Virus record (IMG/VR): IMGVR_UViG_3300034106_004772
Span: 1 to 21,118 of that record
Length of the DNA stretch: 21,118 nucleotides
Strand: one strand, 5' to 3'
Source: a virus
Shown: piece by piece, positions 5,658 through 20,996 of the stretch
Layout: every line of letters begins with the position of its first letter
Numbering within the stretch: position 1 is the first letter of the stretch
Program-made: the position numbers and the translations under genes
Notes under the pieces: generated by a model
Seen by the model: only the letters and a program-made list of their open reading frames with translations
Database searches by the model: none
What the model was told of the DNA's origin: nothing

Positions 5658-6257
5658 ATGAATTTAGACAAATTAAAAGGACACATCCCTGACAAAGTAA
5701 TTAGCCAAATTCCAGGAGTAATGGAAAAATTCCAAATCAACACTCCACTACGTTTAGCTCACTTTTTAGCTCAATGTGGTCATGAATCAGGTGGATTTAG
5801 ACTAACTAAAGAAAACTTAAACTATAGTGCTAAGGGTTTAACAGGCACTTTCAAAAAATATTTCCCAACTGAAGCATCAGCTGCTGCTTACGCTAGACAA
5901 CCAGAAAAAATTGCCAATAAAGTGTATGGTAACAGAATGGGTAATGGTCCTGAAGCATCAGGTGACGGCGCTAAATTCTGTGGCCGTGGTTATATTCAGT
6001 TAACAGGTAAAGATAACTACACAGCGTTTGGTAAATCTATTAATGAAGACTTAACTAAAGATCCAACATCAGTAGCAGACAAATATGCTTTATTATCAGC
6101 TGCTTGGTTCTTTAATAAAAATGGTTTGCATAAAATGGCTGATGAAGGTGCAACTGACGCAGTTGTAACTAAAATTACTAAACGTGTTAATGGTGGTACT
6201 ATTGGTTTAGCTGATCGTATCAAACACTTTAAAGAATATCATCACTTACTAGCTTAA
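5658..6257 (+). CDS. GH19-family endolysin (chitinase-like peptidoglycan hydrolase)
   Basis: 199 residues forming a single GH19-type domain. Key segments are HFLAQCGHESGGF with predicted catalytic Glu43, ENLNYSA with a possible second acid at Glu52, KYFPTE, and YGNRMGNGPEASGDG leading into FCGRGYIQLTGKDNY (about residues 90-121). This is the standard phage endolysin form of GH19, which cuts the glycan backbone of peptidoglycan. No signal peptide or transmembrane segment is visible, so export would need a holin, and none is seen here. It lies inside the baseplate cluster, 10 nt after the gp6-like stop. It could therefore be a virion component instead of, or as well as, the lysis enzyme. It shares its core motifs with the hydrolase at 3-1205. 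The enzyme family is secure; its stage of action is open. Confidence 0.9.
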   Translation: MNLDKLKGHIPDKVISQIPGVMEKFQINTPLRLAHFLAQCGHESGGFRLTKENLNYSAKGLTGTFKKYFPTEASAAAYARQPEKIANKVYGNRMGNGPEASGDGAKFCGRGYIQLTGKDNYTAFGKSINEDLTKDPTSVADKYALLSAAWFFNKNGLHKMADEGATDAVVTKITKRVNGGTIGLADRIKHFKEYHHLLA

Positions 6258-14362: not shown

Positions 14363-15640
14363 ATGTCAGCATTTAAACGAATTAACGTATCAGACTATTT
14401 TGTAGTACCTTATACAGCCAATAAAAGCTGGGATATTAGGTCTGGGTCTTTAGCTGACAATCAAATAACTGTAAACGCAGGAGTTAAGTTTACTAGTTCG
14501 CTATTTGATCCCTACAATGAACTTGAAACTAACGGTCAATATGATCGTTTGGTTTATGACATGGTAAACGCTACTTATTACCCTAGATTTCTTCCAGGGT
14601 ATGTAAATACTAGTTCAATGCAAGGTACTATCTTTAATGATGGTACCTTGTCTACATCTTCTTATAATGACGGAATTGTTAATTTAGGTAATTTAGATAC
14701 TGTAAGATATTTTCCAACAGGAAATGGATCATTAATTTACGCTATTAATTTTCCACGTCAATTAACTGGTGATAAAATTTTACCAACAACATTTGAATTA
14801 TCATATGTGAGTGCATCTGCTGATTATAAAATATATGATGATGGAAATTATAACTTATTTTACAGCGGTAGTGATGTTAGTTCTTCTATTGGAACAGTAT
14901 TATCTCAGAGTTCATATGTAGGTAATGTGTTTTATGAGCAAAATATAGCCATATTAAGTATAATTCCTAATGGATTTATGCCTACGCCAACACCAACCCC
15001 TACTCCAACCCCAACTCCAACTGGAACACCAACACCTACTCCTACAGCTACTAATACACCAACTCCAACCCCTACACCAACTAATACTGCTACTCCTACA
15101 GTAACACCAACACCAACTAATACTTTTACTCCTACTCCAACACCAACAAATACCATTACACCAACCCCAACTAATACTTTCACTCCAACACCAACACCAA
15201 CTAACACACCAACCCCTACACCAACACCTACTCCGACACCAACACCAACTCCAACTCCTACTCCAACAACACCAACATCTATTTGGACAATTAGAAACTT
15301 TAACTGTGGATTTGGAACAATTAATGATGTTGGTATTAATGGTGACTTTATGGGCTCATTAAGTGGTCCTTCAAACTTCCCATTAACATCAACTTTATAT
15401 GGACTTAAGTATAGTCCAAGTAGTATAAACTATGGTGGTTCAAATACAATTCAACTTAATGTAACTACTAATTTACCAGGTACAGGAAACTGTGGTATAT
15501 TAAGAGTATATGTTAATAGTACTGTAGTTGGTGTATCATATTTCTCTTCAAATCCATTCCCACAAATAACAGGTATAGTAATTAATGCTGGTGATCAAGT
15601 TACAGTAGAAACAGATTGTGTGGCAGGAGCTTGTCCATAA
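14363..15640 (+). CDS. Modular adhesin-like tail protein with Pro-Thr linker
   Basis: 425 residues in three parts. Residues 1-206 are a beta-rich virion-type domain ([20 protein letters not shown], then [15 protein letters not shown], then [16 protein letters not shown]) that probably anchors the protein to the particle. Residues 207-305 are almost pure alternating Pro-Thr with occasional Ala, Asn, Val, Phe and Ile, expected to form an extended stiff stalk. Residues 306-425 are a separate small beta-rich domain with four cysteines ([18 protein letters not shown] at the end) that could be the binding head. The predicted role is presentation of a receptor-binding or surface-adhesion domain away from the baseplate. 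The head was not matched to any family. Start at 14363; an earlier ATG at 14352 is out of frame and hits a stop. Confidence 0.65.
14981..15277 (+). repeat. Pro-Thr coding repeat block, first fiber gene
   Basis: 99 codons of Pro/Thr dipeptide repeats, with a 6-bp protein period in which a Thr occurs nearly every second residue. The plus strand is very G-poor. Codons alternate among CCA/CCT/CCC and ACA/ACT/ACC with no fixed order. Confidence 0.9.
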
Positions 15641-15660
15641 CATAAATTAAATAATAAGAG

Positions 15661-17340
15661 ATGATTAGAACTATAGTACCAAATTTCGATGTTAAGTTTA
15701 AAAACAACCATGTTGTTTATGAGACTTTCATCAAATGTACTATAAAGGACTATGAATTTAACACATCATATAACCCAACATTATTATCAGGTTCACAAGG
15801 TGTTATGACACCATATAGTTCATCTGATAGCGGAAGTGTAGTATATGTTACTCCACAGGATAGTTTTGGTATATTGAAAGATTTTGCTACTGGATCTATT
15901 TCTGGTTCAGAATTTTCACCGTATGTGTCAACAGTAGGTTTATATAATGACGCTCAAGATTTAATAGCGGTAGCTAAAATGGCAGAACCAATTCCTATTT
16001 CATCAAATACTGATCAAACATTTTTGATTAAGTGGGATTTGAACTATAACGATGGATTTTATCCAACTGCTACTCCTACCCCTACTCCAACTGCTACACC
16101 AACTCCAACCCCAACACCTACTGCTACTAATACACCAACACCAACAGCAACACCTACTGCTACAGCAACTCCAACTGCTACAGCAACACCTACTGCTACT
16201 CCAACTCCTCCACCACCAACTGATACGCCAACCCCTACTCCAACATTACCACCTACTAATACACCAACACCAACACCAACACCAACTCCAACCCCTACTA
16301 ATACTCCACCTCCACCTACTGACACACCAACTCCAACCCCAACTAGTACACCAACTAATACACCAACCCCTACACCAACTCCTAACCCATCAGGTAGTTT
16401 ATTCTTTGATGCGTCAACAGGTGTTGGTGGTTATAGTGTCACTGCTATTGATGTAAATGGTGTAACACCTACATTAACTAGTGGAACTAATGTTCCATTT
16501 AGTACTGATGGACATGGTTTTGCTACTAATCAAACTGGTAATAATGAAACTTTAAATATAACAATAGGTGGATTTACATTAAATGGATGTATTCAAGTTA
16601 CAGATAGTGGGGCGAATTATTATCAACAGAATGTGAGTGGAAATGGAACTATTTCCTTTACTGGTCTTGTAATAAACAATACAACAACAGTTCAGGTTGT
16701 ATTAGCTGATGGATCTTGTTCTTCATCTACCCCAACACCAACTCCAACTTCATCACCAACCAACACCCCAACCCCTACACCAACATCTCCGGCACCAACT
16801 AATACACCAACTCCAACTCCATTACCAACAGACACACCAACCCCAACTCCTGTGCCAACTAACACCCCAACACCTACACCAGTACCAACTGACACGCCAA
16901 CACCTACTCCAACCTCTCCTGCTCCAACAAATACACCTACACCAACCCCTGTACCTACTGACACACCAACACCAACACCTGCTCCTACTAATACACCAAC
17001 ACCAACACCTACATCTACACCGGTTGAGAATCAAGTACTTGTTTACACAAAATATAAAACTACTGCACCCACGGGAAATTTACAATTTAGTATAAATAAT
17101 GGAACATTTATCAATGCTGGTCCAGTGACAACCACATCTTGTACTTATAGTTTTGCAATTAGTGGATTAGAAATTGGAGATACAATTGATTTCAATAACA
17201 CATCAACATTTACAGTGGCAGGAAGTACATCAGTTTGTCCTGATGGGCCAGGTGGATTCAGTTGTGACTTTAGCTATTCTGTTTTATCATCAGGTCCACA
17301 AAATGTTTACATCACAGTGGATGGTTCTACCGCCTGTTAA
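15661..17340 (+). CDS. Two-linker modular adhesin-like tail protein
   Basis: 559 residues with five visible parts. Residues 1-134 are a virion anchor domain ([36 protein letters not shown]) sharing the TVGxYND module with the protein at 13318. Residues 135-243 are a Pro-Thr linker. Residues about 244-356 are a beta-rich domain ([20 protein letters not shown], then [10 protein letters not shown]) with two cysteines. Residues 357-454 are a second linker built of 10-residue units. Residues 455-559 are a third, different beta domain with cysteines ([25 protein letters not shown], and a Cys as the last residue). The likely role is a tail appendage carrying two binding domains on stalks. The neighbouring gene has the same plan with an unrelated head. 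Head functions unknown. Confidence 0.65.
16063..16389 (+). repeat. Pro-Thr coding repeat block, second fiber gene, linker 1
   Basis: 109 codons dominated by Pro and Thr with interspersed Ala and Asn ([18 protein letters not shown]). It separates the anchor domain from the middle beta domain. Alternate frames and the reverse strand give long low-complexity open frames that are shadows. Confidence 0.9.
16729..17022 (+). repeat. Pro-Thr coding repeat block, linker 2, 30-bp units
   Basis: Eight copies of a 10-residue unit P-T-(N/D)-T-P-T-P-T-P-x can be read, with a three-residue SPA insert after unit 1 and again after unit 5. Each unit is 30 bp. No two are identical in DNA, because Pro and Thr third positions vary between copies. 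Confidence 0.88.
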
Positions 17341-17362: not shown

Positions 17363-17791
17363 ATGAAATGGAATTATTGGGATAAATTAGATCCCGAAGA
17401 TTATATTGGTTTTGTTTATAAAATTACAAACTTAGCTAATAGTAAATTTTACATTGGTAAAAAGTATTTTTGGTACAACAAAAAGAAAAAACTAACCAAA
17501 AAACAACTAGCTGAATTACCAGTCACTCCAGGTCGTAAACCAACACATGAAATTGTTCGTGTTGAAAGCGATTGGAAAACATATTGGGGCTCATCTAAAG
17601 AATTATTAACTGATGTTAATGAACTAGGATCAGAGTTTTTTGAGTGTCTAATACTCAAACCATGTAAAACAAAAAAAGAACTCACATACTATGAAATGCA
17701 TTATCAATGTAAATTTGAATGCCTAATTCCAGGTACTAATAGTTACAACGATAATATACTAGGTAAGTTCTTCACTAGAGATTTGGCCTAG
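17363..17791 (+). CDS. GIY-YIG family endonuclease
   Basis: 142 residues. The nuclease core is at the N-terminus: GFVYKITNLANSKFYIG (residues 16-32) gives the two-strand GIY...YIG signature with FVY in place of GIY. A SDWKTYWGSSKELL segment follows in the middle, and YYEMHYQ supplies the probable metal-binding Glu111. This is the common short form in phages. There it is often a free-standing homing endonuclease, but it can also be a DNA-degradation or repair enzyme. It stands alone with 22-nt and 27-nt gaps on either side, between the virion genes and the primase. That is the kind of site where mobile endonuclease genes settle. Family confident; homing activity is inferred. Confidence 0.83.
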   Translation: MKWNYWDKLDPEDYIGFVYKITNLANSKFYIGKKYFWYNKKKKLTKKQLAELPVTPGRKPTHEIVRVESDWKTYWGSSKELLTDVNELGSEFFECLILKPCKTKKELTYYEMHYQCKFECLIPGTNSYNDNILGKFFTRDLA

Positions 17792-17818: not shown

Positions 17819-18754
17819 ATGATCAATGCAGCCTTACTACATACTGTAAACAGTGTATTAGGAAAAGGAAAAGAAACAAGCAGTAACAACTACGCTTATA
17901 AATGTCCTTTTTGTAATCATCATAAACCTAAACTAGAGGTGAACATGGTTCCTAATATGAAAGGAGAGAATCCATGGCATTGTTGGGTATGTAACGCTAA
18001 AGGTAAAACATTAGTAGGTTTATTTAAAAAGATCAAAGTCGCTTCTGATAAAATATCTGAGTTAAAATCAATACTTGGTTTCACTCAAAAAGAAGAAGTT
18101 GTTAGTGACAAAACAAAAGTTGAATTACCTAAAGAATATAAACCACTTATTAATCTCGCACGTACAGATATCGCCGCTAAACACGCTTTAATGTATTTAA
18201 AGAAACGAGGTATTAATAAGTCGGATATATTGAAGTATAATATAGGTTATTGTGAAGAAGGCAGGTATGCCAACAGAATTATTGTACCATCATATGATAC
18301 TAATGGTGAATTAAATTATTTTATAGCCAGGGATATTAATCCTGACTCAAAGAAAAAATATGATGCTCCTAAATGTAACAAAAATGAACTAATAGGACTT
18401 GAATATTTCATTAACTGGGATGTTCCTGTTATATTATGTGAAGGTATTTTTGATGCTATTGCTATTAAACGTAATGCAGTACCATTATTAGGTAAATCAA
18501 TACCAAAAGCGCTAATGTTAAAATTAGTACAACCAAGTGTTAAAACAGTATACGTGTCTTTAGATAGGGACGCCTTAAAAGATGCTCTAAAATACGCAGA
18601 AGAATTACTCAATCTAGGCAAAGACGTTTATCTAATTGATTTAAAGGATAAAGATCCATCAGAAATGGGCTTCGAAAAATTCACTAAATTAGTTCATGAA
18701 GCCGAGCAACTATCTCTAGGTGAACTAATATACAAAAAACTAGAATTAGCATGA
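17819..18754 (+). CDS. DNA primase with zinc finger and TOPRIM domain
   Basis: 311 residues. The N-terminal zinc-binding domain has Cys29-x2-Cys32 (KCPFCNHHKP) and Cys55-x2-Cys58 (HCWVC). A TOPRIM catalytic domain follows, with Glu208 in VILCEGIFDAIAI and Asp249/Asp251 in VYVSLDRDA. DKDPSEMG near the C-terminus is another typical primase element. The protein makes RNA primers for lagging-strand synthesis, recognising its template site through the zinc finger. No helicase motif is fused to it, so it resembles the stand-alone T4 gp61 arrangement more than T7 gp4, although the Cys4 zinc ribbon is T7-like; a separate helicase would be encoded elsewhere. Its stop overlaps the next start (ATGA). 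Confidence 0.88.
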   Translation: MINAALLHTVNSVLGKGKETSSNNYAYKCPFCNHHKPKLEVNMVPNMKGENPWHCWVCNAKGKTLVGLFKKIKVASDKISELKSILGFTQKEEVVSDKTKVELPKEYKPLINLARTDIAAKHALMYLKKRGINKSDILKYNIGYCEEGRYANRIIVPSYDTNGELNYFIARDINPDSKKKYDAPKCNKNELIGLEYFINWDVPVILCEGIFDAIAIKRNAVPLLGKSIPKALMLKLVQPSVKTVYVSLDRDALKDALKYAEELLNLGKDVYLIDLKDKDPSEMGFEKFTKLVHEAEQLSLGELIYKKLELA

Positions 18755-19536
18755 TTGATAGAAATGTCAACATAATTAAAGACCCTAAAATCAAACGCAT
18801 TGTAGAATACAATGAGGGAGATAGGCAAGTAAATGTATTAGACTCTCGTTTTTACAGACGTGGGGAAGAATACTATCCATCAGTGACATCAGTATTAAAT
18901 TATTTCCCTAAAAATCAGTTTTTTCACAATTGGTTAAAAGATGTAGGACATAATTCAGACATTATTGCTTCTAAAGCAGCAGCTGAAGGTACTCAAGTAC
19001 ACACTGCTATTGATCGTTTTTTAAACGGAGAAGAAATTCAATGGTTAGATCAAAATGGTAGAGCAGAATATAGTATGGATGTATGGAAAATGATCCTTAA
19101 GTTTGCTGACTTTTGGAACACACACAAACCAGAACTTATAGTAGGTGAGTACCATTTATTTTCTGATGAACATAAGTATGCTGGTACAGCTGACTTAGTT
19201 ATTCGTATGAATGAAAAGTTATGGTTATTAGATATTAAAACATCTAACTCACTTCATACATCATATGATTTACAATTAGCAGCTTACTCTAAAGCATGGA
19301 ATGAAACACATACTGATAAAATAGAAGAAACAGGTATTTTATGGCTTAAAGCTAACACACGTAGTGAAGGTAAAAAAGATAAAATACAAGGTAAAGGATG
19401 GGAACTTAAAGTAATAAGTGATATTGAAGCTAACTTTAAGATGTTTATGAATGTATATGAAATATACAAACTTGAAAATCCAAATTTTAAGCCTATGACT
19501 GAATTATTACCAACATCAATTAAATTGATTCAATAG
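18751..19536 (+). CDS. PD-(D/E)XK exonuclease, RecB/Cas4-like
   Basis: 261 residues. Nuclease motifs appear in the RecB-like order: YPSVTSVLNYF near the N-terminus, EGTQVHTAIDRFL with His84, Glu133 in VGEYHLF, AGTADLVI with Asp148, LLDIKTS with Asp161 and Lys163, and QLAAYSKAW with Gln175 and Tyr179. The Cys residues of the Cas4 iron-sulfur cluster are absent, so it is a plain PDDEXK exonuclease. It is translationally coupled to the primase by a 4-base ATGA overlap, which suggests work at the replication fork, in recombination-dependent replication, or in end processing. Host DNA breakdown is an alternative. There is no adjacent cas1, cas2 or repeat array, so a CRISPR role is unlikely. Confidence 0.83.
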   Translation: MIDRNVNIIKDPKIKRIVEYNEGDRQVNVLDSRFYRRGEEYYPSVTSVLNYFPKNQFFHNWLKDVGHNSDIIASKAAAEGTQVHTAIDRFLNGEEIQWLDQNGRAEYSMDVWKMILKFADFWNTHKPELIVGEYHLFSDEHKYAGTADLVIRMNEKLWLLDIKTSNSLHTSYDLQLAAYSKAWNETHTDKIEETGILWLKANTRSEGKKDKIQGKGWELKVISDIEANFKMFMNVYEIYKLENPNFKPMTELLPTSIKLIQ

Positions 19537-19548: not shown

Positions 19549-20253
19549 GTGAATAATAATCAATTTACAATAGTCATTCCTTGTAAAAATGAAGGTATAA
19601 ATATATACGATTGTTTAGGATTCATTTGTAAACAAAAAGGAATAGGAAATACCAGAGTTATCATTGCTGATAATTCAGATGATGAAGAATCATTAAATTG
19701 GTTATATAGAGCTCAAACAGATTACAAATATTCTATTAAAATAGAAATTATCAAAGGAGGGTATCCAGCTAAAGCGCGCCTTGAAGGTTCGAAATTAGTG
19801 GATACCCCTTATATATTATTTCTAGATGCGGATGTGATGCTACTAGATAATAAATTATTTTATAATATACTTGGTTTTAATTTAGATTTATTAACAGTAC
19901 CATTTCAAACAGAAAAAGGATGGAATTGGGTGTTTCGTATATTTGATTTATTTCAAAATTTAAGTGTGAAATTAGGTACACCATTTGCGGTAGGTGGTTT
20001 TCAATATTGGAACACTCAAACATATTGGGAACTAGGTGGTTATAAAGAAGATGAATTATTCGCGGAGGATTATTCTTTATCATCTAAAGTTAAACCTAAA
20101 AAATTTTGGATACATGGATCAAATGGGGTATTCACCTCAGCTAGACGTTTTAGAAAAAAAGGTATTGGATATATGTTTTGGATTATGATTAAAAGTTATC
20201 TCAATAGAAACAACCCAGAATTTTTCAAAAAACATCATAACTACTGGAAATGA
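19549..20253 (+). CDS. Family 2 (GT-A) glycosyltransferase
   Basis: 234 residues, with a GTG start because no in-frame ATG precedes the conserved N-terminus. The GT-A fold is clear: FTIVIPCKNEG at the start (nucleotide-sugar binding), FLDADVML with the metal-binding D93-x-D95, an AVGGFQYWN segment, and an AEDYSLSSKV segment with Glu173-Asp174 as the probable catalytic-base motif. The C-terminus is basic and has one hydrophobic stretch (GYMFWIMIKSYL) that could rest against a membrane. It would transfer a sugar from a nucleotide donor, either to a host envelope glycan or to phage DNA or virion protein. It is coupled by an ATGA overlap to an LpxH-like hydrolase, which favours envelope glycolipid chemistry. 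Donor and acceptor cannot be read from the sequence. Confidence 0.83.
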   Translation: MNNNQFTIVIPCKNEGINIYDCLGFICKQKGIGNTRVIIADNSDDEESLNWLYRAQTDYKYSIKIEIIKGGYPAKARLEGSKLVDTPYILFLDADVMLLDNKLFYNILGFNLDLLTVPFQTEKGWNWVFRIFDLFQNLSVKLGTPFAVGGFQYWNTQTYWELGGYKEDELFAEDYSLSSKVKPKKFWIHGSNGVFTSARRFRKKGIGYMFWIMIKSYLNRNNPEFFKKHHNYWK

Positions 20254-20996
20254 GATACCAAGCCATTATAATATCAGATTTACATTTAGGTACTAAAGAC
20301 TCTAAAGCGGAGGAATTTATTGAATTTTTAGAAAATCATCCTACTGATCTTTTAATATTAAATGGTGATATTGTAGATGGATGGGCGTTAAATAGAGGTA
20401 CAAAATGGAAAAAACAACACACAAAAGTTATTTCTAAGTTATTAAGATTATCAAATACAACCCAAATAATTTGGATAAGAGGAAACCATGACGAATTTAT
20501 ACAAGACTTTATTGGCACCCACTTGGGCGCAATTGAAATTAGAGAAGATTACATCATCAATACAAAAGTTTGGGTGGAGAATGATGTATATAGGAATGAA
20601 AATTATTATGTTTTTCATGGAGATGTTGTGGATGTTTTTATAACAAAATATAAATGGCTATCTAAAATAGGAGCTGTTGGATATGATTTTGCACTTACTC
20701 TTAATCGTTGGTACAATAATTACCGCAAATGGAGAAAATTACCATACCAATCCATATCTCAGAAAATTAAAGGCGGAGTTAAAGCAGCTACTAATTACAT
20801 AAATGATTTTGAAACCACAGCATTATCCATGGCTCATAAAAAAGGATGTAATGGTGTTATTTGTGGACATATCCATCAACCAGAAGATAGAATACTTAAT
20901 GGTAAACGTTACTTAAATAGTGGAGATTGGATAGAAAATATGAGTGCTATATTAATAGATAACTATAGTAATATAACATTATATAAACACAGCTAG
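20250..20996 (+). CDS. Calcineurin-like metallophosphoesterase, LpxH-like
   Basis: 248 residues. All five metal-site motifs are present: ISDLHLG (Asp10, His12), LNGDIVD (Asp40), RGNHDE (Asn79, His80), FHGDVVD (His123) and CGHIHQPE (His207, His209). The spacing and the long insert between the fourth and fifth motifs (YDFALTLNRWYNNYRKWRK) resemble the UDP-2,3-diacylglucosamine diphosphatase (LpxH and LpxH-related) group. Members of that group cleave a pyrophosphate in lipid A assembly. Phages more often carry other calcineurin-like enzymes, such as lambda-type protein phosphatases or SbcD/gp47-type nuclease subunits; length and motif context argue against both. It is translationally coupled to the glycosyltransferase by ATGA. 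Metallophosphoesterase is certain; the lipid substrate is inferred. Confidence 0.8.
   Translation: MRYQAIIISDLHLGTKDSKAEEFIEFLENHPTDLLILNGDIVDGWALNRGTKWKKQHTKVISKLLRLSNTTQIIWIRGNHDEFIQDFIGTHLGAIEIREDYIINTKVWVENDVYRNENYYVFHGDVVDVFITKYKWLSKIGAVGYDFALTLNRWYNNYRKWRKLPYQSISQKIKGGVKAATNYINDFETTALSMAHKKGCNGVICGHIHQPEDRILNGKRYLNSGDWIENMSAILIDNYSNITLYKHS

Follow-up and report, generated by a model that had tools for sequence, protein, structure and literature searches.

The virus fragment IMGVR_UViG_3300034106_004772 of IMG/VR, whose 21,118 bases constitute the window analyzed here, carries a GT2-family glycosyltransferase gene coupled to a metallophosphoesterase (MPE) gene whose product, by its sequence, belongs to the PlcP family and not to LpxH. 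The two genes are conserved together, both are under purifying selection, and both encode intact catalytic motifs. We propose, with a probability of about 0.6, that phages carry them as a PlcP-Agt-type module for remodelling membrane lipids, which would convert phospholipid into phosphate-free glycolipid. Lipid remodelling by PlcP and Agt is an established process in bacteria; the novelty resides in a version borne by phages with a GT2 partner, and the open-licence literature that we searched held no account of a phage-borne PlcP or of a phage-borne module of PlcP and glycosyltransferase.

Besides a primase, an exonuclease, and two GH19-like lysins, the window encodes baseplate proteins of a myovirus (gp25-like and baseplate J-like). 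The isolated phages most similar to it are those of the immuto group of Flavobacterium phages (56% identity for the exonuclease and 46.5% for the baseplate wedge). The large phages with the GT2-MPE cassette probably infect Bacteroidota. The PD-(D/E)XK exonuclease gene (18751..19536, plus strand; phrog_298, E = 1.7e-38) is a neighbour located outside the cassette, and profile matches confirmed both this gene and the primase upstream of the pair as genuine. Twelve bases past its stop, a GTG codon starts the GT2 gene (19549..20253, plus strand, 234 amino acids), followed by the MPE gene (20250..20996, plus strand, 248 amino acids), the product of which is a proposed phospholipase C. The ATGA overlap of the two frames (20250..20253, plus strand), read directly from the sequence, likely results in translational coupling of GT2 and MPE. 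This overlap, as well as a complete set of metal motifs in the esterase, had been pointed out in an initial annotation of the window, and both were verified. GT2 and MPE match PF00535 (Glycos_transf_2, E = 9e-12) and PF00149 (Metallophos, E = 6e-15), respectively, each above the curated cut-off, and the MPE metal ligands D10-x-H12, GD40 (NGDI), GN79-H80-D81, H123 (FHGD), and GH207-I-H209 are all present, in motifs that are invariant across 19 relatives.

Both proteins are small and have no predicted membrane spans, and their dN/dS values against near relatives (0.03-0.09 for MPE and about 0.10-0.17 for GT2) indicate purifying selection. In GT2, the motifs IPCKNE, GGxPxxAR, LFLDAD, PFAxGGF, AEDY, and RRF are conserved in 41 sequences, among which DAD (93-95) and AED (172-174) are invariant or nearly so. 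Thus, the Pfam match, these residues, and the fold match account for the DxD-type metal site, the catalytic acidic residue, and the GT-A fold. The AlphaFold model (pLDDT 94) depicts a compact GT-A enzyme, for which the nearest solved structures are GT2 enzymes for polysaccharides and teichoic acids, and the basic C-terminus (pI 10.8) might aid membrane binding. No GT2 homologue was found among annotated phages. The earlier remark that the pairing is not a standard phage module was supported. Since 395 Bacteroidota genomes gave distant matches only (best E = 9e-22, for a gene in L219 with no adjoining MPE), the origin of GT2 was not traced to the host.

The initial annotation had also likened the esterase to the LpxH enzymes of lipid A synthesis, an assignment that did not survive our analysis. 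Automatic models do label the window MPE as LpxH, weakly, as it reaches 47 bits with the LpxH equivalog model against a cut-off of 134, and true PlcP proteins likewise score far under this cut-off. Its identity to LpxH is about 21-25% over long alignments. Two PlcP references were taken from a plasmid collection, one of P. aeruginosa (L093) and one of S. meliloti (L094), the latter adjoining an acyl-homoserine-lactone synthase gene and its regulator and being presumably the PlcP gene SMc00171. The window MPE is 39.8% and 38.5% identical to these references, respectively, over the full length, and up to 49% identical to its nearest Bacteroidota relatives. The two references share 47% identity, against a published 46% between the PlcP of S. 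meliloti and PA3219 (PMC8528852), and in L093 a GT4 gene is next with an ATGA overlap, in the order described for PA3219-PA3218. Moreover, the cap motif GY..N..R..PYxSxS..K..K is common to the window MPE and PlcP and absent in LpxH. An Arg replacing the catalytic His (GNRD) is described as constant in known LpxH (PMC5016852), whereas the window MPE and all its relatives have GNHD; this difference carries little weight, because His also occupies this position in most LpxH-like proteins of Bacteroidota. All eight Bacteroidota genomes tested hold a PlcP-like gene and a separate, better-scoring LpxH-like gene. A fold search with the predicted MPE model, in which the cap is weakly modelled (pLDDT 80), returned LpxH first and generic MPEs after, with poor superposition, and was not taken as evidence for LpxH.

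The phylogeny, run as initially suggested against Bacteroidota LpxH, led to the same family. The LpxH of E. coli and eight LpxH-like proteins from Bacteroidota genomes separate at 100/100, the window MPE being outside. The phage MPEs form one clade (98/98), into which the long-branch phage sequence L092 is drawn, and this clade has an SH-aLRT of 99.8 when long-branch sequences are left out. It joins the Bacteroidota PlcP-like proteins at 99/98, and the PlcP references come next. A topology with phage MPEs and LpxH on one side of a branch was not rejected by the AU test (p 0.48), which we read as an uncertain root on the long LpxH branch because the phage MPEs are not inside the LpxH clade. On the PlcP side, the phage MPE clade may be the sister group of the Bacteroidota clade or may branch more deeply. 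An LpxH or lipid A identity of the MPE was rejected on its low score with the LpxH model, its percent identity, its place in the tree, and its cap motif. An affiliation with SbcD-type nucleases or protein phosphatases, which the initial annotation had named as evidence that would count against it, was likewise rejected on the tree and on the model score (20 bits with SbcD model TIGR00619, cut-off 77.65).

A scan of viral contigs with the MPE recovered 77 loci, on contigs between 4.7 and 287 kb in length, with an ORF called in 76. GT2 is directly upstream of MPE in 69 of these 76 IMG/VR loci and separated from it by one small gene in 3 more, while its place is taken by a PF13528 glycosyltransferase in 2 (L068 and L073). 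Hence, a glycosyltransferase is linked to MPE in 74/76 loci, the other two (L011 and L050) having none adjoining. As some contigs are near-duplicates, independent cases are fewer than these counts; the gene order, recurring in 69/76 related loci, is far beyond chance, and short overlaps of GT2 and MPE are found in most of them. Far from being unlinked in all relatives, the outcome that the initial annotation had named as refuting, GT2 and MPE go together in almost every relative. The surroundings of the pair vary, with about 20 different gene clusters immediately upstream and clearly different neighbourhoods (exonuclease-linked, or with a non-specific nuclease or PA14-domain genes in the vicinity). 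Among the 69 loci in which GT2 directly precedes MPE, the exonuclease (cluster c7) is immediately upstream of the pair in 18, and among 15 long contigs tested, the window baseplate protein is present in 8 and the window exonuclease in only 2. Moreover, Flavobacterium phage immuto provides an empty site, in which the cassette is missing and genes of another kind come after the exonuclease. These varying neighbourhoods and the empty site argue for the pair being a unit and not a part of the replication module. A tight tie to replication genes is ruled out by the variable context, and the proximity noted at the outset holds for the window, with its primase and exonuclease, but not generally. Beside these observations, a small hydrophobic protein (about 95 amino acids) is encoded between GT2 and MPE in two loci (L007:5711-6004 and L015:5711-6004) and ahead of MPE without GT2 in a third (L050:5720-6004), and it may be a further part of the cassette.

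The closest cellular relatives of the MPE are from Bacteroidota (44-49% identity, 80 loci). A PF13528/GT28-like glycosyltransferase gene comes after the MPE relative in 68 of these 80 loci, often with a short overlap or ATGA, so that the search for the gene pair in bacterial genomes recovered the pairing with a glycosyltransferase but with PF13528 as the partner, not GT2. A member of the same glycosyltransferase family overlaps MPE in L068 and L073, both of them divergent phage loci, while most phages have the unrelated GT2. In Proteobacterial relatives, a GT4 gene follows the MPE gene. Since the families differ (GT2, PF13528, and GT4), the coupling of MPE to a glycosyltransferase outlives partner replacement, as in PlcP-Agt. 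The simplest reason for MPE keeping a partner though its family changes would be that the glycosyltransferase acts on diacylglycerol, the MPE product. In phosphate-related settings, a Bacteroidales contig encodes MPE, glycosyltransferase, polyphosphate kinase, and Ppx consecutively, and a Mitsuaria PlcP relative adjoins ppk1 and ppx. Unlike the phage pair, Bacteroidota operons may add a diacylglycerol-kinase-like gene, which is near the MPE relative in 9 loci and just downstream in 8. In these eight loci (L106:5696-6751 and related loci), the diacylglycerol-kinase/YegS-like gene comes after the genes of the MPE and the glycosyltransferase, which makes a three-gene lipid operon possible in these bacteria. 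Phosphate depletion strongly upregulates PlcP (Fjoh_4577) of Flavobacterium johnsoniae as well as a pf04101 glycosyltransferase (Fjoh_0541) of this species, both of which are on the lipid-remodelling list (PMC8115612). The plcP gene of this species is described as an orphan uncoupled to a glycosyltransferase.

The known PlcP-Agt systems (P. aeruginosa PA3219-PA3218, S. meliloti PlcP, and SAR11 PlcP-Agt) likewise couple a PlcP-family phosphoesterase tightly to a glycosyltransferase, and the conversion of phospholipid to MGDG and GADG by PlcP and a GT4 Agt has been proven experimentally (PMC8528852, PMC9239053, and PMC4796936). The phage pair has in common with them the catalytic and cap motifs and 38-40% MPE identity. 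It differs in being phage-borne, in its reversed order with the glycosyltransferase first, and in its glycosyltransferase family: P. aeruginosa Agt1 matches GT4 Pfam models, whereas the phage enzyme is a GT2 of GT-A fold, unrelated to the GT4/GT-B Agt. PlcP is characterised as a phospholipase C that works with Mn2+ and is induced under phosphate stress, traits that the phage MPE may share.

We propose a model in which the MPE, acting as a metal-dependent phospholipase C like its family, would cleave host glycerophospholipids into diacylglycerol and the phosphorylated headgroup. GT2, expressed from the same message and regarded by analogy as a candidate diacylglycerol glycosyltransferase, would then move a sugar from a nucleotide sugar onto this diacylglycerol, resulting in a phosphate-free glycolipid. 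The headgroup phosphate would be available for phage DNA synthesis, while diacylglycerol would be removed and the membrane kept intact. We infer phospholipid as the MPE substrate from the family and diacylglycerol as the GT2 acceptor from the pairing; the sugar and the gain for the phage are likewise inferred, and the acceptor and donor of GT2 represent the weakest link of this argument. The role at the host membrane suggested by the initial annotation is plausible, and its alternative of a lipid-linked sugar comes nearer than lipid A, although phospholipid is the likelier substrate. Phages contain much phosphorus, and the phosphate supply of the host often limits them. A bolder and more tentative hypothesis, to which we give somewhat less than even odds, could be that large Bacteroidota phages mine host phospholipids for phosphate, with a PlcP-type MPE freeing the headgroups and a dedicated GT2, unrelated to the host enzyme, rebuilding the membrane with glycolipid. 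The MPE partner would then have been replaced in evolution, PF13528 being found on host chromosomes and in divergent phages and GT2 in most phages.

The main rival explanation concerns the benefit. The pair could alter the host envelope, through a glycolipid or a lipid-linked glycan, chiefly for adsorption, superinfection exclusion, or membrane properties and not for saving phosphate, by a chemistry that could equal the one proposed above. Membrane lipids do affect phage adsorption in at least one system, as a Ruegeria pomeroyi olsA mutant binds its phage about 4-fold less (PMC9938194), and the solved structures nearest to GT2 act on surface polymers. Nevertheless, the phosphate-related settings of MPE relatives (Ppk/Ppx and PstS-like), the nature of PlcP as a phosphate-stress enzyme, and the lack of a link to receptor or adhesin genes in the related loci inspected make a surface role unlikely.

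Two further explanations appear less probable than a surface role. The cleavage of UDP-2,3-diacylglucosamine or of a related lipid A precursor would agree with the weak LpxH model matches and with LpxH being the best solved relative of the MPE by sequence and by fold, the two sharing a calcineurin-like fold, metal ligands, and a helical insertion at the same place. The PlcP-type cap residues, the low identity, the position outside the LpxH clade, a score as far under the cut-off as that of true PlcP, and the separate LpxH-like gene in the Bacteroidota genomes tested nevertheless leave such a reaction very doubtful. Alternatively, GT2 could glycosylate modified phage DNA bases, with the MPE as a nuclease or nucleotidase working with the primase and exonuclease, behind which the pair is located in the window; weak MPE matches to DNA-repair phosphoesterases go in the same direction. 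However, the exonuclease neighbourhood is confined to a minority of the directly paired loci, the MPE groups with PlcP-like proteins, and its close chromosomal relatives are paired with glycosyltransferases of other families, so that a nucleic acid role is just as improbable as the lipid A reaction.

If phospholipid remodelling by the pair is true, the recycling of phosphate from the membrane would be a new route for phages, the known phage phosphate genes acting, to our knowledge, mostly on uptake (e.g., PstS), and it would newly connect phage infection in natural waters with the lipid composition of membranes. In virome studies, 'lpxH' figures among the auxiliary genes for lipopolysaccharide (PMC9611531 and PMC10653327). 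These counts may in part represent PlcP-family genes, which would correct a recurring annotation.

A PlcP-family gene of Pelagibacter phage Mosig (L089:7995-8732) is annotated as a putative UDP-2,3-diacylglucosamine hydrolase and adjoins the genes of a phosphate ABC binding protein and of a 2OG-Fe(II) oxygenase. Like the window MPE, it is a phage-borne PlcP-family phosphoesterase; unlike it, it has no adjoining glycosyltransferase, groups with Proteobacterial PlcP, and is 37% identical to the window MPE, probably representing a separate acquisition from another host phylum. The GenBank record MT836169 (L091), named 'Bacteriophage sp.' and originating from faeces, was rejected as a phage relative: it holds bacterial genes only (tyrosyl-tRNA synthetase-like, ppk, ppx, and others), its gene content is that of a piece of a Bacteroidales chromosome, and its MPE groups with Parabacteroides, which indicates a mislabelled bacterial contig.

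The defence-system search gave a single weak PADLOC match, to a candidate family, and the number of sites in the promoter scan was not above chance. Elsewhere in the window, the two GH19 chitinase/lysozyme-like genes (432-1205 and 5658-6257) belong to one sequence cluster, one of them lying between baseplate genes. Immediately before the primase, a gene of the SegE-like GIY-YIG endonuclease family (17363-17791, Pfam E = 5e-27) has a homologue in phage immuto that is annotated as NAD synthetase, probably a wrong label. Finally, two adjacent proteins of the virion region (14363-17340) contain long PT-rich (TPTPTP) repeats, which render the plus strand sharply C-rich, with a GC skew of -0.5.
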